64,000 bases of DNA, taken from positions 3,410,001 through 3,474,000 of the forward strand of contig OX596340.1 of the NCBI GenBank assembly GCA_951394405.1, read 5' to 3'. A program made the position numbers and the translations under genes. Source of the DNA: Coprinellus micaceus (Eukaryota > Basidiomycota > Agaricomycetes > Agaricales > Psathyrellaceae). Of the stretch, positions 15,734 to 61,195 are shown in pieces. Each line of letters starts with the position of its first letter. The first letter of the stretch is position 1. The notes beneath the pieces were generated by a model. The model saw only the letters and a program-made list of their open reading frames with translations. It was not told the origin of the DNA and did no database searches.

Positions 15734-16629
15734 ATGGGTTCTATCCAAGGCGTAGCAGACCTCGACCAGACTCGCATTACGCTCTTCGACCTTGATTCTA
15801 CGCTGGATGGTCCTGACCACGAGAAAGCTTTCTCGTGTTCCACTTGGAAAACGAGGTGCGAGGACCTGATATAAACCCTCAAAGGAACCAATGAGACTCA
15901 CTGTGCACCTCTAGGTATGCTCTAAACTTCAAGAAGCTCCCCTTTACAACCGTCTTCCTGGACTTCGTCGACGTCGAAGGGGTTTGCGAACGTCTCGGAG
16001 CGGAACCCACTATCCGATACAAGCCTCCAGGCTCCGACGAGGAGAAGATCATTTACACAGTCCCAGTCATATACGACCCCAAGACTGGACGTGTGGTGTC
16101 CGAGTCGCTCGCTATCGCCGAGTACCTGGACGAAGCGTACCCAGCTCCTGAGTACCCCATACTCTTCAAACCAGGGACCAAAGGGCTCACCCGAGCCTTT
16201 GGAGCGGCTATCGACCGAATTCCCACCGTCCTTCCGACTCTGTACCCCTTCCTTCTCCCCGCCACGTTCCCCATCGTGAAGGACACCAGCAGGGAGTACT
16301 TCCGGACGACCCGAGAGGCAGCCTTCAATAGAATCAGTGGGGGAAACAAGAAGCTGGAAGACGTATACCCCAAAGGAGACGAGAGGGTGGAGGCATGGGC
16401 CAAAGTGCGAGGAGCGTTGGCTGTTATTGAGGCATGGTATGCGGCCGAGGCAGGGCAGTGGATTATGGGGAACAGCCCTTGTTACGCTGATCTAGTCGTC
16501 GCTGCTTATTTGATCTGGATGAAGAAGATATTCAAAGAGGATAGCGAGGAGTGGAGGGACGTGAAAGAGTGGGATAATGGGAGGTGGGGGAAGCTACTGG
16601 ACGCGTGCAGCGTCTACGAAACTCTCTAA
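15734..16629 (+). CDS. Glutathione S-transferase, divergent Ure2-like
   Basis: Two exons (15734-15855, 15915-16629) give 278 residues. The N-terminal thioredoxin-like part has ITLFDLDSTLDGPDHEKAFS, KTRYALNFKKLPF, YTVPVIYD and SLAIAEYLDEAYP; the C-terminal helical part has WIMGNSPCYADLVVAAYLIW, the GST_C N-cap/hydrophobic core, and DNGRWGKL near the end. It shares the EWxxVKxWDxGRWxxL ending with the GSTs at 30411 and 44883 but is clearly more distant. A role in glutathione-based detoxification or peroxidase activity in the cytosol is expected; the substrate is unknown. Confidence 0.9.
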
Positions 16630-30410: not shown

Positions 30411-31196
30411 CTACGCCACGGATGCGTAGGGCTTCAGCCTCTCTACCAGCTTCGCCCACCTGCCATCGTTCCACTCCATGATGTCCGCCCATTCCTTACT
30501 GCCCTCCCCAAAGACCTTCATCGCCCACATGAAATAGCCACCAAACATGCCATCAACAAAAGTCGGCTTCTCCCCAGCGTACCATGGCCCACCATTCTTC
30601 GCCTCTTTCTCCTTCAAGGTCGCATCGAAGCCGTCGAAGCACGCCTTCGCCTGGGTCCAAAGCTCCTGCCTGTGTTCTGGGGTCAAAGGAACGTCCTCCA
30701 GCCGCTCCACCTTGTACATGTACATATCCTTGGCTCGAGCACGAGAGAAGTGTTCTTGACTCTCCTTGTTCAGGAGGCCGACGCTGCCGCATCCCAGGAG
30801 TATGAGGGTTGGGAGCATGCCATACAGCCAGGTCGCGTGAAGCTGTTCCTGCTCCTCGAGAGCGGTTTTGTCGTCGGGGAGAAGCTTGGGGGTATCTGGG
30901 TAAGCCTGGTCCAAGTACTTCGCGATGGCGAGCGAATCGAGGAGCTTCGCTTTGACAGTGCCTGTTTCATCGTCGATATCAAGGACTGCGGGGACGGTGT
31001 AGTAGGGAGTTCCATCTTCCTTCGTCTTGTATGGCGGGAAGCCGTGGCTTTCAAGGACGGGGGCGATTTCTGGATACTCGAGCCATTGGGTCTTGTATGG
31101 AATTCCCTTGAAGTTCAGAGAGAAACGGGTTTTCCAGGTGGTAGCATTCCAGGCCTTTCCAGGGATAGAGGAGGTGACGTCGAAGAAGGTGATCAT
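30411..31196 (-). CDS. Glutathione S-transferase, Ure2-like, intronless
   Basis: A single exon of 261 residues. The N-terminal thioredoxin fold has MITFFDVTSSIPGKAWNATT, WKTRFSLNFKGIPYKTQWLE, YYTVPAVLDIDDETG and LAIAKYLDQAYPDTPKLLPD; the helical C-terminal domain has NGGPWYAGEKPTFVDGMFGG and ends WADIMEWNDGRWAKLVERL. Gly-Lys and Tyr in YTVPAVL and the Ser after LLD are the expected glutathione contacts. With the genes at 1 and 44883 it forms a subfamily of near-equal length (261 residues for the two complete ones), scattered rather than tandem. It probably serves detoxification of plant or wood extractives; that is family knowledge, not shown here. Confidence 0.92.
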   Translation of the reverse strand: MITFFDVTSSIPGKAWNATTWKTRFSLNFKGIPYKTQWLEYPEIAPVLESHGFPPYKTKEDGTPYYTVPAVLDIDDETGTVKAKLLDSLAIAKYLDQAYPDTPKLLPDDKTALEEQEQLHATWLYGMLPTLILLGCGSVGLLNKESQEHFSRARAKDMYMYKVERLEDVPLTPEHRQELWTQAKACFDGFDATLKEKEAKNGGPWYAGEKPTFVDGMFGGYFMWAMKVFGEGSKEWADIMEWNDGRWAKLVERLKPYASVA

Positions 31197-31776
31197 CTGG
31201 TAGAAGCTCGCGATAGCGTTGGGTGACGGCGACGCTGGAATTTATCCTCCAGGAGAGCTTGATAGCCATCTTAATAGAATCTTAAAGGGTTGTTGTTGTT
31301 GTTAAGATTCCGAGGTCAGCAGCCATCACTGGCGCCAACCCCCAAGCCGACCTGAGAGAAAAGCCCCGTGGAGAAACTCTGCCGGCTTGGAGCCTTTTGT
31401 ATGCGATACTGGCTGCGACTGTCCTGTGTACCCATCCTTAACGAAAGACAGGGCAGAATGTCCATCCGCCAGCACCGATACGGCCGTGGGGCTCTTTAAA
31501 GCTTATTTTCGACAATTGCTGGCATGTGTAACACAAACACTGTTTGTTTCCATAAGGTTGCCAAAGGGCGGTGACATGTACATCCAGCGCTCAATGCTGT
31601 TGGACATGAGGCGGCGGGAGAGGCACCTGTCCGCCATATTATTACGTAATCGTCCCGGATGGACAGTTCCCCGTTACCCGGTCGTAACGCACGGACCAGA
31701 GACAGGGGTCGGCGGCGTGGAGCAGGGGAGTGTGGGCGACGGCGCCAACTGACGAGTGATATATTCTCGAACATGG

Positions 31777-31854
31777 CATGCCCACAGGATTTCGAACGCA
31801 ACGGTGCCCGCAGGACTTCAAATATGACGGTGCCCGCAGGACTTCGATGTAGTG
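31777..31854. repeat. Three 26-bp tandem repeat units
   Basis: Units begin at about 31777, 31803 and 31829 and share GGTGCCCGCAGGACTTC; the first unit is more diverged (TGCCCACAGGATTTCG). It may be a small minisatellite. Confidence 0.7.
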
Positions 31855-44882: not shown

Positions 44883-45668
44883 TCAGTTCTTAAGTCCTTT
44901 CTCCCTCCAGTCCGCTATGCCTCGGATAAACCTTTCCCATCGCCCCCCATTCCAACTTTTGACATTGGCCCACTCCTTACTCTCCTCCCCAAGCATGACC
45001 TCCATCCAGATCAAGGAAGCTCCAACGATGAAATCCGCAAATGAGATACGGTCGCCCAAGTACCACGGCCCCTTCTCATCCGTCGCACCCAACTTGGCGT
45101 CCAAAGCGTCCAGCGCCTTCTTGGCGTCCGCCCAATGCTTCGCTTGGTCCTCCTCCGACCAAGCCCACTCCTCCACCCGGTTCACGTTGAAGAGCGGAAA
45201 GAGGTCCTGCGCACGAGCGGTGGAATAGTGGTCTTGGCTACGTTCGTTGAGTTTGGGAAGGGCAACTTTGGTCATGATGATTAGGATGGGGAGGATGCTG
45301 CGGATGTAGCCCCTGGCAAATGCTTCTTGGTCTTCTGAGGTCCCTTCAGGGATGAGTTTAGGTGTGTCGGGGTATGCCTCATCAAGGTACTTCGCGATGG
45401 GAAACGAATTCGCCATCGCGGTCTTGACTTCCCCCGTCGCATCGTCGATGTCGAGGATCGCGGGGACGCTGTAGTATCCCGACCCGTCTCCGAGCGTGTC
45501 TGTTGGCTCTATGCTGTGAGAGAGGAGCACTGGTTTGATGTCCGGGTACTCGACCCATTCAGTGCGGAATGGGAGGCCCTTGTACGCGAGGGCGAGGCGC
45601 GTGCGCCAGGGGTTGAGCGACCAGGCGGAGCCCGGAGCGGTGGAGGGGATGTCGAAGAGGGTGATCAT
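44883..45668 (-). CDS. Glutathione S-transferase, Ure2-like, intronless
   Basis: A single exon of 261 residues starting MITLFDIPSTAPGSAWSLNP, then LALAYKGLPFRTEWVEYPDI, YYSVPAILDIDD and FPIAKYLDEAYPDTPKLIPE, and ending with LGDRISFADFIVGASLIWME and WNGGRWERFIRGIADWREKG. The thioredoxin-fold and helical domains are complete. TATATAAA on the minus strand at about 45727-45734 lies about 60 bp upstream. It shares a 0.65-kb divergent spacer with the first gene of the cysteine-rich array, where one GGGCGCTTA motif is placed. Confidence 0.92.
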   Translation of the reverse strand: MITLFDIPSTAPGSAWSLNPWRTRLALAYKGLPFRTEWVEYPDIKPVLLSHSIEPTDTLGDGSGYYSVPAILDIDDATGEVKTAMANSFPIAKYLDEAYPDTPKLIPEGTSEDQEAFARGYIRSILPILIIMTKVALPKLNERSQDHYSTARAQDLFPLFNVNRVEEWAWSEEDQAKHWADAKKALDALDAKLGATDEKGPWYLGDRISFADFIVGASLIWMEVMLGEESKEWANVKSWNGGRWERFIRGIADWREKGLKN

Positions 45669-46323
45669 GGTGACTGGGAAGGGGGGGATTCTGGGGCGCG
45701 GAATGGTGATGAAATTGGTACGCTGATTTATATACCCTTGATTTGTGAAACTTTGCTTACTGATCCTTACAGATGAGGGTTCTCGTTAACCTGACTGACA
45801 TAAGCCCGCAGCATCGATATCCATCATGGCGTGGTAATAATCTAATCTTACCCTCGATGGAAGTCGTCGCGCCATTCCCGGAACCCTGAACCCCGAGTCT
45901 GAAAGTTGGACTCAGGGAAGGGTGGCGTCATCACCGGCGTGTGAATCTCAGAATGGGCGCTTATCATCACGACGGACGCTGCCTAGCAACCAGCGTCTTC
46001 TGGATCGCGTCACCAAGCACTGCCTTTTACGCGTCCTCCCCACGTCAGGGTCGGTTACGTCGCGAAGAGACGCGAGGAATCTTCCAGGTAACCCTGGGGG
46101 TCCCCGTCGTTGTCTTGGAGAAAGGTGTGCAGAGTCCCGTTAATTTTACAGCTCTCGCCACCGTCTGCCTTTTTGGTTACAGGCATGTAGTGTGGCCTAG
46201 TGTGGCGAGGGTATATTTAATGAAGGGGGCGATCATGGTGTGACTCACTCACAGAGACTTCCTCCTCCCTCAAGTCAGCCCGGCCCAATTCCTCACATAA
46301 TCCCCACCACTCTTCGGTTGACA
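45669..46323. promoter_or_regulatory. Divergent promoter region between GST and cysteine-rich array
   Basis: Contains the GST TATA (45727-45734), GGGCGCTTA at 45955-45963 and a TATATTTAA at about 46210-46218, about 110 bp before the first array gene. Confidence 0.5.
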
Positions 46324-46681
46324 ATGTGCGAGGGAATGGACTGTGGCGGTTGCGACTGCTGCTGCTGCTGTAAGTGCCCCAAAACATCCACGATAGCTCA
46401 CTGCAGCTAATCTCCTTCACTAGGTGACTGTGCGTGCTGCGACTCATTGTGGGATGCCATTGGGGACTGTGCGTGTGGATATAAGCCTCATGTTTCCGAG
46501 CTATTGTGATTGTTAATTCGCCACGTTCCTTGATATAGGTTTCAGCAACTGGGGGATAACCACGGGCGCCGGCGAGCCCAACCCCATGATGCAACGTGGA
46601 GGGGGGATGGAGGATATGGTCAATCCAGTGGTAGAGCAACAGCCTGGACACCTCACAGAGATGGACGTTCTGAGGAGGTAG
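46324..46681 (+). CDS. Cysteine-rich array gene A
   Basis: Exons 46324-46369, 46424-46468 and 46539-46681 give 77 residues. Twelve cysteines fall in the first 31 residues: MCEGMDCGGC, Asp, five Cys in a row (the last one split by the intron), DCACCDSLWDAIGDC. The tail is Cys-free: NWGITTGAGEP, MEDMVNPVVE, then QQPGHLTEM. Both introns are phase 1 and split a TGT codon as T|GT. There is no signal peptide and no membrane segment. The Cys run resembles metal-binding or S-acylated stretches, but aromatic residues and the long tail are unlike fungal metallothioneins. I do not recognise a family. The gene is the first of five in tandem, all plus strand. Confidence 0.75.
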
Positions 46682-46885
46682 CTGGTCTTTCGCGATATAG
46701 GTATCTCTCGAGCTGGACTCGCCTTTTCCCTCTTTTTTTCGATGAAGCCACTCATGTAATACGCGTCTTTTGGACTTCACATTAGACTCCGACCGGGGTC
46801 GAACCTATCACAGACCGGGGATACGCGGTAACGCGTGTTGAGCGCGCGTCCAACCTCGTTTCGCGCACGTGAGTGGAAAACAGAC

Positions 46886-46894
46886 GGGCGCTTA
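46886..46894 (+). promoter_or_regulatory. GGGCGCTTA motif upstream of array copy B
   Basis: It lies about 313 bp before the start of copy B, inside a GC-rich segment with a second GGCGCC palindrome nearby. Four of the five array copies have this motif at 260-370 bp. Confidence 0.4.
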
Positions 46895-47198
46895 GCGTCT
46901 GGCGCCCGCGCCCATGCTACGCCAGCAACTGTTAAATAGTGTCGGAAGTCCTGCTACATGGCTTCGAGTGGGCGGATATCACGCTTGGTTTCCTTGGCCT
47001 CCTTCGGATTTTAGCACGAGGGCACTGCCCCGCTCTGGAACCCCTGTTACGTGAACTGAATCGATTGTGTGCGGAGGACGCGGCAGCTCTGGGTTCAGCT
47101 TTGAGTCGGAACTTGCTCGGATATCCTCGACGCTGCTAACTCGCCACCCAGACTTTGGGCATTCATTCATTCACCCCTCCACCAGATATTCGGTCACA

Positions 47199-47584
47199 TA
47201 TGAAGGGGATGGGTGTAGCCGTTGTTACTGTTGTAGTAAGTCGCATTTTCACCGACCAAAAGGACTACAGAGCATAACATTTGCTCCACAGGTAACTGCG
47301 ATTGCCCCTCAAACATACCCATTTGTATCGGAGAAGGTATGTCCGTACCTCAGTCGCACACACATTCGTTGAGGCCACACTGACGCTGTGTTTGTTTTCG
47401 AGTGTTTTGGTGTGAGTGGACAGGCTGCAATAATGCAGCGGCGGCGGTGTACTCTACTCACCGCGACAAAAGCTCCATTAGTAGGATGGGTGCAGCCCCC
47501 TTTTGTCTCAACGCTGTGCCCACTGCCCCGTCGTTAGCGGGCTTCAGTCCGTGTCCGGGCATCCCTTCCCCCAGGCTGCCTTGA
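47199..47584 (+). pseudogene. Cysteine-rich array copy B, start lost
   Basis: The first exon remnant reads YEGDGCSRCYCC from 47199; the position of the ATG-TGT of the other copies is ACATAT here, so Met-Cys is lost. A donor GTAAGT at about 47236 and acceptor near 47291 lead to NCDCPSNIPICIGE, aligned with the second exon of copy A. A third exon after 47402 either reads CFGVSGQAAIMQRRR or, in another frame, VFWCEWTGCNNAAAAV; neither keeps the Gln-Pro...Glu-Met end. A longer in-frame upstream start exists at 47067. Most likely a decayed member. Confidence 0.55.
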
Positions 47585-47729
47585 TACAATTGCATGCGGA
47601 GAATGTGGCTCCATGCTGGCCGTTTATTTAATAGGGCCCCTACTTTGATGGGAAACTTCACTTTGCCTTTCATCCAGACCAACACCTGGCACCCCATTCG
47701 CCCACTTCTCAACTTCGAAGGGTCAGGAT

Positions 47730-48116
47730 ATGTGCGAAGGAGGTTGTGACTGCGGCGGGTGTGATTGTGGTGGATGCGATTGCTGTTGCGGTGACGGTGA
47801 GTTCGTTGTGCGATTTTCGAATGCTGAAGCGGAAAGTAATGTTCGCATTGTCATTAGGTTGCTGTGACTGCTCTTGGTGTGAAGGTATATGGAAGTGCAT
47901 AGGAGATTGTATGTTCCCCACTCTCGTTTAGTGCCCTAGACTCATCACCGTCGACTCATAGTCTGCACCCCTTGGAACGGGGTAACGCCTGGAGGAGGGA
48001 CGAACCCTTTCGCAAAACCCGTGCCAATGAACGGGATGCAAGACCTCGAGAATCTGGATCCGCTGATTGACCGGCAGCCGGACCACTTCGTAGAGATGGC
48101 AGTGCCAACCAAGTAA
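47730..48116 (+). CDS. Cysteine-rich array gene C
   Basis: Exons 47730-47796, 47858-47908 and 47962-48116 give 90 residues. Fifteen cysteines lie in the first 41 residues, arranged as repeats of Cys-Asp-Cys-Gly-Gly (MCEGGCDCGGCDCGGCDCC), then CCDCSWCEGIWKCIGDFC. The tail has TPWNGVTPGGGTNP, MQDLENLDPL, then RQPDHFVEMAVPTK. Both introns are phase 1. Exon 2 is 51 nt. A TTTATTTAATA at about 47621-47631 could serve as TATA element. The middle exon's Trp-x-x-Cys-Ile/Leu pattern is shared with A, D and E. Confidence 0.78.
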
Positions 48117-48297
48117 AGGGTAGAATTCGGCGCTAGGTTTAGGGACGTTGTATCACACTGCCGAATTTCAACGGACCTTCCACCTAGTGGTCGTGCCACC
48201 CAACAATAGGGATTGGGACATCTTCCTTAGGTATCGTAAGGCGCCTATCACCAACACAGGCGCTCGTGACTCACGGATATGATTAGCCGAGGGACAA

Positions 48298-48329
48298 GGG
48301 CGCTTGACTGAGTCTGCAACGGGCGCTTC
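48298..48329 (+). promoter_or_regulatory. Two GGGCGCTT motifs upstream of array gene D
   Basis: Copies at 48298-48305 and 48321-48328, 23 bp apart, lie about 340-365 bp before the start of gene D. Confidence 0.4.
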
Positions 48330-48663
48330 GAGTCTCCCAGGTGGCATCGGCGCCGGCGCTCGAGCTGCGTGCCGGGGATTTTGTCCCTTGAATATTGAAG
48401 ATGTAGAGCCGGTCTTCACATACGCCCGTTCGACCTCACCTCGAGCCGGATCCTTCTGAGCGACACTCCCCGCAAGCCACCAGTGAGGCCCTTCTTGTTC
48501 TCGAAACGATGGGGTGCGGTTCCCGATAAGGTGACATATGAACGGGGTATAGCCTTGTATAGCCGCGGAACCCTGCTAGCGTTAGGAGCGCCCATCTTCA
48601 CAGGCTTTCACCCTCCACCGTTTTGGCCAGTGAGTCCTGATCCCTCTTTGATCCTACCCCACA

Positions 48664-49060
48664 ATGTGCGACGACTGCAGTGGATGCGACTGCGACGGAT
48701 GCGACTGCCAAGCGTGCTGCAATTGTTACTGTGAGTAGCGGTACCTTCTACAACCAGTCCCAGTCGGGTCTAACGCATGTCTCTGCAGGTGACTGCTCTT
48801 GGTGCTTTAACTCATTCTGCGAGGCTCTTGACTACTGTGGGTCATTTTCAACCCGGGGGCGAATCGCTTCGATGCTGTCGGCTGACGTGAATGAATGGAT
48901 CACAGTTTGTAGCGTTTGGAACCCCCAGCCATCTAGAGGTAGATCAAATCCATTCGCCAGTACGACACCCCCAACAGCAGCAGCGCAAGACCAAAGTTCA
49001 AACCCCCTAATCGCACAACACCCGGGAAATCTTGCGGAAATGGCGATACCAGGGAAATAG
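48664..49060 (+). CDS. Cysteine-rich array gene D
   Basis: Exons 48664-48730, 48789-48836 and 48906-49060 give 89 residues. Fourteen cysteines fall in the first 40 residues (MCDDCSGCDCDGCDC, then QACCNCYCDCSWC, FCEALDYFC). Exons 1 and 3 have exactly the same lengths as in gene C (67 and 155 nt), and the tail shows SVWNP, SSNPLIA and QHPGNLAEMAIPGK, matching C's RQPDHFVEMAVPTK. Position and phase of both introns match. The first-intron donor is GTGAGT, the second GTGGGT. It looks fully intact. Confidence 0.78.
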
Positions 49061-49244
49061 GATACATGGCGATGGCGAGGCGGTGGTGAGGCAGTGGTAC
49101 GACATAATTGTTTGAGCCTATGAATCCCGGATAAGGCGTATAAATCTACGCGTCCCGAAATTGGAATTAAAGAACCCACATTTGGTCTGCAGACGCCGAA
49201 GATCGAAGCCCGATTGGTCAGCATCAAGCGCGCAGCTGAGGAAT

Positions 49245-49253
49245 GGGCGCTTA
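49245..49253 (+). promoter_or_regulatory. GGGCGCTTA motif upstream of array gene E
   Basis: Part of AATGGGCGCTTATAG, about 260 bp before gene E; the same AATGGGCGCTTAT string stands at 45952 upstream of gene A. Confidence 0.45.
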
Positions 49254-49503
49254 TAGTTTGCTTGGCATCCCGTTCGACGCCAAGGGCTTAATGATTGGGA
49301 CGCACCGCCATGCACTGCAGCACAATATAGGGCTGTTCAAATTAAAATGCATGGTTGCTTCGTGTTCCCAGCCCGGTGAGGCCCCAATCCAACGTGTTGC
49401 GGACGGGATAGGTTCAATAACTTTGCCGACTGACTGTGCGAGGAAGCCCCCACCTCTCCTCCTCCCACCTCTCCATTCTTAACCCAAGAACTCGTTATTG
49501 CCG

Positions 49504-49923
49504 ATGTGCGAAGGCGGATGTGACTGCGGGGGATGCGATTGCGGAGGATGTGACTGCTGTAACTGCTGTAATGCGACTGTTGCTGTAATTGCGACTGTGA
49601 CTGTAAGTCGCCTTTGCCGGAGTAGCGCGAGACGACTCCTTATTCAGCGTTTTCCACTCCCAGGGGATTACTCGTTCTGCGATTCGATATGGAAATGCCT
49701 GGTGGACTGTGAGTGCTCATCCTCCCGGGAGACAAACCAACTGACTAGAAGAACTGGCTGTCGCGTTGTGGCAGTCTGCAATTCCTGCCCGGGATCCCTT
49801 GACACTGGTGGAGGGAATTCGAATGTTGGAAGGCGGTCTGGGCCAGCATGGGGAGAGGAAGGCTTCTATGTTACTAACCGACAACCTGGCGAGGTCGCGA
49901 ATATGACGACGTTGAGAGCTTGA
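49504..49923 (+). CDS. Cysteine-rich array gene E (altered first donor)
   Basis: It begins MCEGGCDCGGCDCGGCDCC like gene C. Using a GTAATG donor at 49568, exons 49504-49567, 49664-49708 and 49775-49923 keep frame and give 85 residues with 13 cysteines; the second exon reads DYSFCDSIWKCLVD and the tail RQPGEVANMTTLRA. Using the better GTAAGT donor at 49603 breaks the frame. Between the two donors a further Cys-rich stretch (TGC GAC TGT TGC TGT) is readable only in a shifted frame, so one base seems to have been lost from a longer Cys block. Either the earlier donor rescues the gene or it is a recent pseudogene. Confidence 0.6.
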   Translation: MCEGGCDCGGCDCGGCDCCNCCNATVAVIATVTVSRLCRSSARRLLIQRFPLPGDYSFCDSIWKCLVDCECSSSRETNQLTRRTGCRVVAVCNSCPGSLDTGGGNSNVGRRSGPAWGEEGFYVTNRQPGEVANMTTLRA

Positions 49924-50607
49924 ATTTCCAACACACGAGGATGTTGAAACGTGTTGCTTCATAAAACCAAAGCCACGCGGTTTGGGCTTCCATCCAGCAC
50001 TAAAGGTGAACGCGCTTTCTCAGACGGATGTTGAAGCGAGGTCTCTCCAGCTGACCGTCGTGGAAGACTCAGTACTCAGCCATCCTGCGGTTAACCTTTG
50101 GTAACTGACGGCACGATGATCAAACCAGGAGAACCACGGTCTGGGTTTGGTCTGGGATCCGATTCGGAGTAGGTTGGTCCCGGCCTTCTCGCTTGCAACT
50201 CAGGTCGAGGTGCAGAATTCAGTGGATCTCGCCGCAATGGTTCGTTGCGTGATGCCAGTGCGGGACGCTGGCAGTCAATGAAGATGTTTGATAAATAGAG
50301 TTACGAGCGCTCGCCATATCAAGGTCCTGGCGGGCGATTCAATTCAAGCTGCCGCTGCCGTCACGAAACTCGTGCATTTGCTCACGTACCCACACCTAGA
50401 GTGGCGTCTCGGCAGGGGAACCGTGATGCCTAAAACTCAATTGAAGCCTCGACTCGCATATATGCAGGTCGTTGGGGACTTCAATGCGTGAAACGGTGGC
50501 GACAGCACCAAGCACTCTCCTTCCCGTTTCGCTCCCCCAACGCTACGACCCGCCACGACCAACGAAAGCCGAAAGCCGGAGACCTACAAGAGGGGGCAGG
50601 GAGTAGG
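49924..50607. other. Gene-free stretch right of the array
   Basis: I searched for further Met-Cys-Glu/Asp starts and Cys-Asp-Cys codon runs and saw none. The array ends here. Confidence 0.5.
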
Positions 50608-52367
50608 ATGGCGGGACAAGGAGGAGTCGACATTGTCTTGTTGTGAGTAGCCTTCTACGTGATGACTGGAGGGCCCTACCAACTCACTTGGCCGGCTAGC
50701 ACCGGTCCTTTGGTGCGTCTATCGAGCTTTTAGGCACCTCTGCAGCTCCCCGACCGCCATGGCCTCAGTTCATAGGATGCATGCTCTCGTACTTCCTGTC
50801 CGGTTGCTCTTTTGTTCAGACCGGTACGTACAGCCTTTGAGGACTAGCGCTACGGAATGTTTATCTCACCCCTGTGCACCAGTGTACTTCTTCCAAACCA
50901 CCCCAATATCCAAACGCCATAGATATGTGATCACTCTCGGTACGACACGCATTGACATGGCCCACTTTGGTAGCAGCTGGAGCTGATGTTTGGTATACAG
51001 TATCACTCGTTTCCATCGCCGAGCTTGCCAATGCAGTCATCGTCACCATCTGCCTGTTCCACATATTCTGTGTGGCTATTCCCAAAGGAGACCTCAGCTT
51101 TCAAACACCTCCGGTCGCTTTGGCGTCGCCTACTTTGAACACATTCAGTACGTCGCTCTGTCACCAAGCCTGCTTCCAATTGCTGAGAAGTGGTAACCAT
51201 TCAGTCGCTGTGTCTGTGCAGGGGCATTTCGCTCTGTGAGTTATTTCATGGCTACTAGTAGAAGAGGAGATTAAGTTACTCACACCCATACAGACGAATC
51301 CGCAAATTATCTCAAGGATCATTGGCCGGCAGAGTCATTCCGATTTTCATAGCTCTGGTTCGCCTTCGTCTACCTTGACTACGCACAAGACCTGAGGCCT
51401 GAGTGCTAACTGATGTTTCCCTCGAATTCCAGATGGGGCTTGTCCAGTTTGGCAGTACCATCGGAATTTCCTACCTAGTGGGTCGCTCCATCTGGGTCCA
51501 GGCGCTTTCAAGACTAATCCTCATGCGGTAGATTGGGGCAGCGAACAGAGAATTGGAACGCATTGCTCGTGAACTTCATCAGGGGCGCGTTGTGCTGGTG
51601 TTGTTCATCAACACCGCCCTCGCCGACATTGTCATTACGCTTACCTTGGTCTATCTCGTAAGTTCCTCCTTTACGGTGCGCTGCTGTGTATTGCTCACCT
51701 CCCCCCAGTATTCGACCTTCAGGAAGAATACTCAGAGTCGACAGTCGAAAAATTGGCTCAACAGCCTCATCTTGCATACCATTGAGAATGGCGCCATCAC
51801 ATCCTTTGGGGTTATCCTCTACTTCGCCTTCTACCTGGCCCACCCAGACAATTTAATGCACATCGGAATGTAAGTTATTCCTGTAACAGCCTATGACTGC
51901 CCCATCACTTACTCGCCCAAACACCCTTCAAGTGCATATGTCGTCTGCCGATTGTGAGTCTGTGCTTCAACAAACGGCCGTCCCTTTTCTGACTTAATCG
52001 CCCCAGGTACTCGAACGCCCTTCTCGCGTCCATCAACGCGAATCGGCGCTTCCAGCAAGAAGCTATGTCCCATTCCGAAACCAGCTTCAGTCTTCCTAGC
52101 TCCCCCAACCCTTCGGCGCGCCAGGGCGGAGCTGAAGCAGATATCCCTGAAATCAATACGACCAATTCAACAAGGAGGCAGAGTCTTTCGGAAGCTCTCC
52201 AACGATCAGTGCTGATAGGAACGTGTACGGATACAATCGAGTTTACGACCATCCACTCTTCGGCACTACCCCGCTCCAGAGACGATTGGTCGGAGGGGCA
52301 GAACATAGACGGTTACTGGAAGGATGGGGCTCTTACGAGAGAACAAATTCGGAATACCGTATCGTAA
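50608..52367 (+). CDS. Seven-TM membrane protein, DUF6534-like (3)
   Basis: About ten exons. The start MAGQGGVDIVL joins to FTGPL and then FIGCMLSYFLSGCSFVQT, the GPxxIG region of the family. Later exons give YFFQTTPISKRHRYVITLAA, DVWYTVSLVSIAELANAVIV, RIRKLSQGSLAGRVIPIFIA, LVQFGSTIGISYLVG, LHQGRVVLVLFINTALADIV, NWLNSLILHTIENGAITSFG and YSNALLASINANRRFQ, which corresponds to the LxSTLNAR signature. It is more distant from the genes at 7348 and 36077 than they are from each other. The cytosolic tail is Ser/Thr-rich and ends after LTREQIRNTVS. Function unknown. Confidence 0.78.
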
Positions 52368-59784: not shown

Positions 59785-61195
59785 GGTTTTGAAGGTCTGG
59801 TGGAAGATGTCAACAATCTCTAGTGGGCCAGAAACCACAGAGATCTGACGACGAAGGCAGGGGAATGGCGGTTAGAAGGCAACTTGGGAGCGCCCAAAAA
59901 TTTGGCCCCTGGAGGAACCCTAACCCGACAAGCAAGTCAGCTGACCGCCAAATTGCCATTTCTGGCAACACGGCGCGAGTTCGAGTTGTGGCAGGGCGTA
60001 AGGGGGAGGCGAAGGAATTTTGGACAGTGGTAGCCGTGGTTCGATATGATTAGAAGGCCGTATCAGAGATGCTTTAGCCCCCAGGGGCCTGCCAATCGCA
60101 GCGAGAGTGAAGTCTGGGAATTGTCAGGGAAAGGAAATTAGGGCGAATGTTATATTCAGGAACAGCGAGACGATGTGAAACTGTTCACGTCATTGCCGCA
60201 AAATTCAATGCTTTCAATAAGGCATCGTTTATTTGACGTAGACGAGGGTGTTATCCTCGTAGTATCACAACTTGAAGTCGGCCTCCGGGTGCCAGTGGGG
60301 GAGGCGAGTGAGAACTAATCATGAGAGGTGGATAGGATAGTGAAGCGTGGAATGGTGAAAATAGGATATGGCTGCAGACCACGTACCGGTTTCGGCTGGG
60401 GTTTGCAGTTCCATCAGCGGGGCACAGTATCACAAGGACAAGTAAGTAATTACATGTATAACAGGTCGCCACTATGCAATCAAGCCTTGTTGCCAGGCAG
60501 GGTCCCTTGGTTTAGCTATCAACGGCGAAGTTTCAATGAGCCGAATTCCGAGAGGCTGGCTTCACGCGTTCACGAATCCTGTGCCAAAGCTATTCTGCAG
60601 TCAAATGATGAACTCGGAGCCCCCATCAACTGGGCGCTTAAACCAATATGGGTCGATATCGCTTGGGTATAGCGCTGGGGAAAGTTACGCGACTTGAACG
60701 GAATATCAAAGGAACCGCGAAAATAAGAAGTTGATTGAATGCAATGTGTACCACGAGGGCAAAGGCGGGAATCGAATACAGACGCACACGAACGTGATCC
60801 CTACTTAAGCGCGATCGGTGTGGGCGCTTGACCGAGCGCCCCGATACCCTACCATTTACCTATCGGTTCCCGTGGTGTGCTGAGGAAACGTAATTTGAAT
60901 TGGAGTTATGATACATAATGACCGAGCGACGCGAGTAAGTTAACTGCGACCGGTACGTCGGACGTTCGGGACGTCGGGGAGGGTTACAACCACGAAAAAC
61001 ACCACGTCTTGATCGCGATCGTCCAGGTCATACACGGCGTCGTCCAGAAACTGCGGCACAGTTCACCCCCTTCACGATTCAGAAGACGCAATGAAACGGC
61101 TCAACGGGCAATTATTCGTTGTAGCAAGCCTAAGCGATCGTCCATCCCTACAAACTAAACCAGACACCCAAACTCCTCACACCCCATCCCCTGCC
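59785..61195. other. Intergenic stretch, about 1.4 kb
   Basis: No supported gene. GGGCGCTT motifs stand at 60632-60639 and 60832-60839. A weak T-loop-like string near 60770 does not fold into a tRNA. Confidence 0.45.

Follow-up and report, generated by a model that had tools for sequence, protein, structure and literature searches.

We analyzed a 64,000-nucleotide (nt) stretch of the Coprinellus micaceus genome (contig OX596340.1, positions 3,410,001 to 3,474,000; hereafter the window), in which an earlier sequence-only reading had described a tandem array of small cysteine (Cys)-rich genes. By reading the sequence and fitting splice models over positions 45301-51000 of the window, we found, as that reading had claimed, five plus-strand units in 3.6 kb, at 46324-49923, which form a row of five gene-like copies, one of them decayed. 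The first gene, g1 (46324-46681), consists of exons 46324-46369, 46424-46468, and 46539-46681, with two GT-AG introns (54 and 70 nt) between them, and predicts a protein of 77 amino acids with 12 Cys within its first 31 residues. The corresponding products of g3 (47730-48116; exons 47730-47796, 47858-47908, and 47962-48116; introns of 61 and 53 nt) and g4 (48664-49060; exons 48664-48730, 48789-48836, and 48906-49060; introns of 58 and 69 nt) are 90 amino acids with 15 Cys within the first 41 and 89 amino acids with 14 Cys within the first 40, respectively. Unit 2 (47199-47336) is a relic in which exon 1-like and exon 2-like pieces precede the good donors GTAAGT at 47236 and GTATGT at 47337, and three-frame translation revealed neither an ATG nor a recognizable tail.

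The last unit, g5 (49504-49923), yields a protein of 85 amino acids with 13 Cys within the first 41 when modeled with exons 49504-49567, 49664-49708, and 49775-49923, but its family frame stays open only when a weak donor lying upstream of the canonical site is used (GTAATG at 49568, directly after the exon 1 end at 49567). An alternative donor, GTAACT at 49559, also works and gives a shorter protein, while the canonical donor GTAAGT at 49603 puts the downstream part out of the family frame. The g5 model is uncertain, and the gene is possibly frame-broken. Within the g5 Cys block, at 49564-49606, lies an 18-nt tandem repeat with copies in different registers, and slippage there, or a sequencing error, may have caused the frame conflict. 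The earlier description of four spliced proteins of 77-90 residues, with 12-15 Cys in the first 31-41, is thus exact for g1, g3, and g4 and holds for g5 only with the weak donor.

Both introns are in phase 1 in all four models (for g5, under the weak donor), exon 2 measures 45, 51, 48, and 45 nt in g1, g3, g4, and g5, and the introns of the clean models (g1, g3, and g4) are all GT-AG and measure 53-70 nt. Four of the eight introns, including both introns of g4, have a strict CTRAY branch motif within the expected region, compared with 11% of random 60-mers.

Could the units be chance Cys-coding repeats or decaying sequence and not genes? Unit 2 is indeed decayed, g5 is doubtful, and tandem repeats of 15 and 18 nt sit in the Cys blocks of g4 and g5. 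However, when all six frames of the window were searched for 20-residue stretches free of stops and containing eight or more Cys, only five were found, of which four are the array genes (the remaining one lies near 22.5 kb on the minus strand), and first-order Markov sequences of the window's length contained no such stretch in any of 20 simulations. The first 19 codons of g3 and g5 differ by nine synonymous changes and by no non-synonymous one, so both encode one identical peptide; when nine changes were drawn at random 60,000 times, no draw came out entirely synonymous under either of the two transition/transversion settings used. This pattern, the strongest evidence of selection seen here, indicates that the g3/g5 Cys block is kept constant by purifying selection. 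We infer that, regardless of whether its frame is still intact, the g5 Cys block remained under selection during most of the period after g3 and g5 split. Together with the phase-1 introns of the four models and the homologues elsewhere that are described below, these results make a chance origin extremely improbable, and we dropped it on the strength of the Markov simulations and the synonymous-only g3/g5 pattern. The proposal that the family diversifies by tandem duplication holds as far as the tandem copies go, but the Cys block shared by g3 and g5 has been held constant by purifying selection. Nucleotide identity between copies is 56-78% in exons and 43-62% in introns, with shuffled upstream sequence reaching 58-59% in the same generous alignment; the copies are therefore old, and nucleotide similarity beyond exon 1 carries little information.

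Three profile searches of 5.8 billion proteins (193, 496, and 185 candidates scored) returned three relatives in all, P0001, P0002, and P0003. P0001 was found in the first search with an E-value of 1.9e-5, when P0002 scored only 9.1, and P0003 came in at 2.5e-6 after P0002 had been added; these later E-values are partly circular because P0002 had entered the profile. P0003 is the hypothetical protein D9611_011677 of Ephemerocybe angulata (Agaricales), with 87 amino acids and 11 Cys. It was annotated independently and has its parts in the same order as the array proteins: an MCDGMD start, a Cys block, an aromatic stretch, and an LIDQQP-x5-M tail. Its middle (FWSFFAGCCYWW) is far more aromatic than that of the array proteins. 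P0002 is an open reading frame (ORF) from a Joint Genome Institute (JGI) metagenome that stays open in frame through MCDGMDCGGCDCCCCCC, a non-family stretch, DCSCCDS..MWKAISDC, a second non-family stretch, and the tail, which, judged from the protein, looks as expected for an unspliced g1-like gene. In tblastn against the 3.8-kb array, run without low-complexity filter or composition correction, P0002 matched g1 best (E 2.4e-16), and P0003 also matched g1 (E 1.5e-11).

P0001, a metagenome ORF on a 960-nt contig, is a collinear unspliced homologue of g3. One segment (residues 4-50) aligns with another reading frame of g3 across exon 1 and its following intron (E 8e-6), a second (residues 36-71) with another frame in the region of exon 2 and intron 2 (E 0.011), and a third (residues 70-125) with the g3 tail at 75% identity (E 8e-26). 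Since P0001 is collinear with the exons and introns of g3, the gene layout, and not just the peptide, is kept in a second genome. The three-exon models of the earlier reading thus gain support both from this collinearity and from the order of parts in P0003.

Within the C. micaceus genome (50.3 Mb, 17 contigs), protein searches with g1, g3, and g4 found the family only in the array, each query missing some of the other units. A search with P0003 found nothing, the array included, so distant paralogues could escape detection. A DNA pattern of the DC[GD/NS]GCDC type occurs at 10 genome sites with at most one mismatch, and seven of these are in the array; the remaining three (L020-L022) were rejected as dispersed paralogues, their frames being unrelated or stop-rich. 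One of them, L022 (G000:C9:2246066-2246086, minus strand), has a short frame, VDDCDCCDCDCEALDWPDWPPP..., that is Cys-rich and contains Trp, with a stop just before it, and it is not clearly a family member. Scans of prokaryote and viral contigs gave 115 and 43 pattern-matching stretches, respectively, and no confirmed relative.

Pfam returned no family at E<=10, metallothionein models included, for the four array proteins and the three relatives, and NCBIfam none for g1, g3, g4, P0002, and P0003. A text search of open-license PubMed Central for the motif strings found no paper, and no description of the family appeared in the titles or abstract openings among the matches listed there for Cys-rich, palmitoylation, CYSTM, metallothionein, and agaric topics. 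The units belong to a real, tandemly duplicated, Cys-rich protein family that is apparently undescribed, as the earlier reading had proposed.

The Cys block begins with MC in the six family proteins with a readable start; at that position the P0001 ORF runs in a different frame. The Cys-Asp-Cys-Gly-Gly repeats that had been attributed to the array are literally present only in g3 and g5, with g1 carrying DCGGCDC and g4 CDCDGCDC instead. CCC occurs in g1, g3, and P0002 but not in g4, g5, or P0003.

The C-terminal tail, which the earlier reading had noted only as Cys-free, carries a signature of its own. All seven proteins (the four array proteins and P0001-P0003) fit the form Φ-Φ-x-x-Q/H-P-x(5-8)-M, in which the Φ-Φ pair is hydrophobic or hydrophobic-Thr and M lies 4-5 residues before the C-terminus; the tails are VVEQQPGHLTEM, LIDRQPDHFVEM, LIAQHPGNLAEM, VTNRQPGEVANM, LIDQQPNQLSGM, LVDSQPTGYYPTTEM, and LIDQQPSTSSPM. 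Shuffled tails fit this loose pattern in 0.015-0.59% of cases, a figure that is descriptive and not a test, as the pattern was drawn up after inspecting the sequences. That M keeps a nearly fixed distance from the C-terminus suggests that the tail is functional and not filler. It is possible that the tail is the active part of a redox-sensing or partner-binding regulator, with metal binding or oxidation of the Cys block as the switch on the Φ-Φ-x-x-QP-x-M peptide. The loose pattern, with its M at 4-5 residues from the end in 7/7 proteins, would fit such a role, but no partner or known motif was identified for the tail, the pattern is post hoc, and its strict form (requiring [DE] and QP) is found in only five of the seven, g4 and g5 failing it. 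We consider a regulator of this kind unlikely.

A crude hydropathy test (19-residue Kyte-Doolittle windows, maximum 0.98) revealed no signal-peptide-like or classical transmembrane stretch in g1, g3, g4, g5, or P0003, consistent with the earlier statement that a signal peptide is absent. The Cys would therefore be expected to reside in the reducing cytosol, where CxC and CCC thiols bind Cu(I) and Zn. A secreted, disulfide-linked, or proteolytically processed peptide precursor would also be small, Cys-rich, and tandemly encoded, with a conserved C-terminal peptide, but the lack of a signal-peptide-like stretch in all five proteins speaks against it, and the CCC and CCCCC runs and alternating CxC seem poorly suited to ordered disulfides. 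We regard a precursor as very unlikely. The metal-binding, S-acylated, and peptide-precursor functions that had been put forward are not told apart by sequence, although nothing found speaks for the last of them.

Our best reading, which we hold with about even confidence, is that these thiol proteins are small, strongly acidic, and intracellular, act like metallothionein, and carry a conserved tail. The number and spacing of the Cys and the synonymous-only g3/g5 Cys block argue for it. The N-terminal 30-40 residues, with 12-15 Cys arranged as CxC, CC, and CCC among Asp and Gly, would fold round soft metal ions such as Cu(I), Zn, or Cd to form a metal-thiolate cluster, on which, or on a membrane surface, the Trp/Phe stretch encoded by exon 2 could pack. 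A flexible Gly/Pro linker would then present the conserved C-terminal peptide for partner binding or localization, and the tandem copies may provide a higher dose or separate regulation.

Several observations weigh against a metallothionein-like role. Metallothioneins usually carry Lys that balances the anionic cluster, but the four array proteins have 0-1 basic and 7-8 acidic residues in their Cys regions, and the net charge of the five proteins computed is -6 to -10. The Cys-free tail is conserved yet not accounted for by metal binding. Upstream of the five units, neither TGCRCNC (3 vs. 1.5 expected) nor copper-element-like sites (4 vs. 3.2 expected) were clearly enriched. Finally, the agaric heptaCys motif, its C-x5-C variant included, is absent from g1, g3, g4, g5, and P0003, on which ground membership in the agaric metallothioneins was rejected. 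The Pfam result is itself weak evidence against a metallothionein: of two control sequences, Saccharomyces cerevisiae CUP1 matched PF11403, but a Neurospora metallothionein matched nothing.

Agaricomycete metallothioneins (AcMT, LbMT, HcMT, CcMT, and kin) have at most 35 (short) or 59 (long) residues and have one Cys pattern in common, a C-terminal heptaCys C-x4-C-x-C-x2,3-C-x-C-x4-C-x-C; AcMT1 has four exons and AcMT2 three, with introns of about 50 bp (PMC12508003). By these descriptions, the array resembles them in its small, Cys-rich, CxC-containing products and its duplicated, multi-exon, short-intron genes and differs in the length of the proteins (77-90 amino acids), the N-terminal position of the Cys block, and the conserved, Cys-free C-terminal tail. 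The fungal-IV metallothionein of Yarrowia lipolytica (Ylip_MT) combines CCC and a tyrosine with a long extension that lacks Cys, and all its Cys, those of CCC included, are engaged in a Cu4 cluster that the Cys-free part stabilizes; the Yarrowia genes MT1-4 form neighboring pairs and are copper-induced (PMC13107397). By description, the array has counterparts to these traits in its aromatic residues, Cys-free extension, and neighboring genes, but CCC occurs in g1, g3, and P0002 and not in g4, g5, or P0003, and the Cys-free part is N-terminal in Yarrowia and C-terminal in the array. Because this metallothionein has CCC, a tyrosine, and a Cys-free extension, the main argument made earlier against a metallothionein, that fungal metallothioneins are short and lack aromatics, falls.

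We also compared the array with CYSTM proteins. A profile search with PF12734, run without a control genome containing a known member, gave no match in the array; its signal elsewhere in the genome was a CYSTM-like gene, L012, at 17.7 bits, under the 25.2-bit cutoff. An hhalign comparison of the array with a piece of the L012 protein produced no alignment (one column, probability 0.2%). CYSTM membership was dismissed, given the absence of a profile match, the N-terminal Cys block, and the absence of a transmembrane-length stretch. Profile matching to a metallothionein or CYSTM family had been set beforehand as the check that could overturn the claim of a new family, and it found no match to either. 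At L012 itself (G000:C11 near 1183221), two neighboring CYSTM-like frames, 489-770 and 1117-1593, have Pro-rich N-termini and a common VVYVQQPVP strand; one ends in GGGGCCGTCCGW (...PDVVYVQQPVP...GGGGCCGTCCGW), and the pair is apparently tandem.

CYSTM proteins consist of a beta-strand element, a variable linker, and a Cys-rich membrane module (PMC10217909). The array proteins resemble them in being small and in having adjacent Cys followed by an acidic residue, a hydrophobic stretch, a variable linker, and a strand-like element (LIDRQP in g3 vs. VVYVQQP in the CYSTM-like gene of this genome), but their order of parts is reversed. This likeness raises the tentative alternative, which we rank second to metallothionein-like action, of an S-acylated, membrane-peripheral protein with a reversed CYSTM-like layout, in which the N-terminal Cys would be palmitoylated, the Trp/Phe stretch would lie in the membrane interface, and the tail would act as a cytosolic adaptor. 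Adjacent Cys, an acidic residue, and an aromatic stretch follow one another in g1 (CCDSLW) and P0003 (CCEGFW), and the P0003 stretch GFWSFFAGCCYWWP is strongly membrane-interfacial, none of 2000 shuffles scoring as low. However, the most interfacial stretch of each array protein is ordinary for its composition (260, 880, 322, and 620 of 2000 shuffles as low for g1, g3, g4, and g5), neither PF12734 nor hhalign supports a CYSTM relationship, and Asp, which is atypical of acylated Cys strings, stands next to many of the Cys. AlphaFold2 on P0003 with two relatives gave a mean predicted local distance difference test (pLDDT) score of 43.7, a model that is not usable, and no solved structure matched at E<=1.

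Metal binding and membrane association might also be combined. It is conceivable, though rather doubtful, that the family represents a natural membrane-docked metallothionein, the boldest of the readings, in which the acidic N-terminal Cys cluster would capture metal on the cytosolic side of a membrane. The aromatic stretch, perhaps with S-acylation, would hold this cluster in place, and the tail would hand it to a transporter or vesicle adaptor, again in a reversed CYSTM architecture. Membrane-anchored metallothioneins are known to us only as an engineered construct (PMC5451056), no dedicated search for natural ones having been made.

The described metallothioneins of mushroom-forming fungi have one Cys pattern in common (PMC12508003). 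An additional Cys-rich family that lacks annotation and has a distinct conserved tail, with no Pfam model and the label "hypothetical" in Ephemerocybe angulata, would lengthen the list of candidate metal-handling proteins. Such a candidate family is readily testable in yeast.

The sequence GGGCGCTT occurs on the plus strand upstream of the units in five copies within 45955-49252 (at 45955, 46886, 48298, 48321, and 49245). Units 1, 2, and 5 are each preceded by one copy, unit 4 by two, and g3 by none, the distances being 259-369 bp. Two 8-mers were common to at least four of the five upstream regions, a number that 26 of 2000 random sets also reached. The whole window contains 14 copies of GGGCGCTT, 12 of them on the plus strand (e.g., at 60632). 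The element is in excess upstream of the units yet frequent elsewhere in the window, and it looks like what may be a general promoter element and not an array-specific one.

We then considered the surroundings of the array, for which a Pfam scan covered 20 of the 48 long frames of the window. The divergent neighbor, at about 44883-45668 on the minus strand and about 655 bp from the g1 ATG, is a glutathione S-transferase (GST) gene (GST_N_2, E 1.5e-9; GST_C_7, E 9.3e-30), which is weakly compatible with a role in stress or detoxification. Further GST_C_7 genes lie at 15895-16629 (plus strand) and 30411-31241 (minus strand), so that three such genes within 30 kb form a loose GST cluster beside the array. 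Rfam reported nothing at gathering thresholds. Downstream of the array are a piece of a sugar/major facilitator superfamily (MFS) transporter and a NAT10/TmcA gene, and a 26-nt tandem repeat of 2.7 copies is found at 31779-31847.

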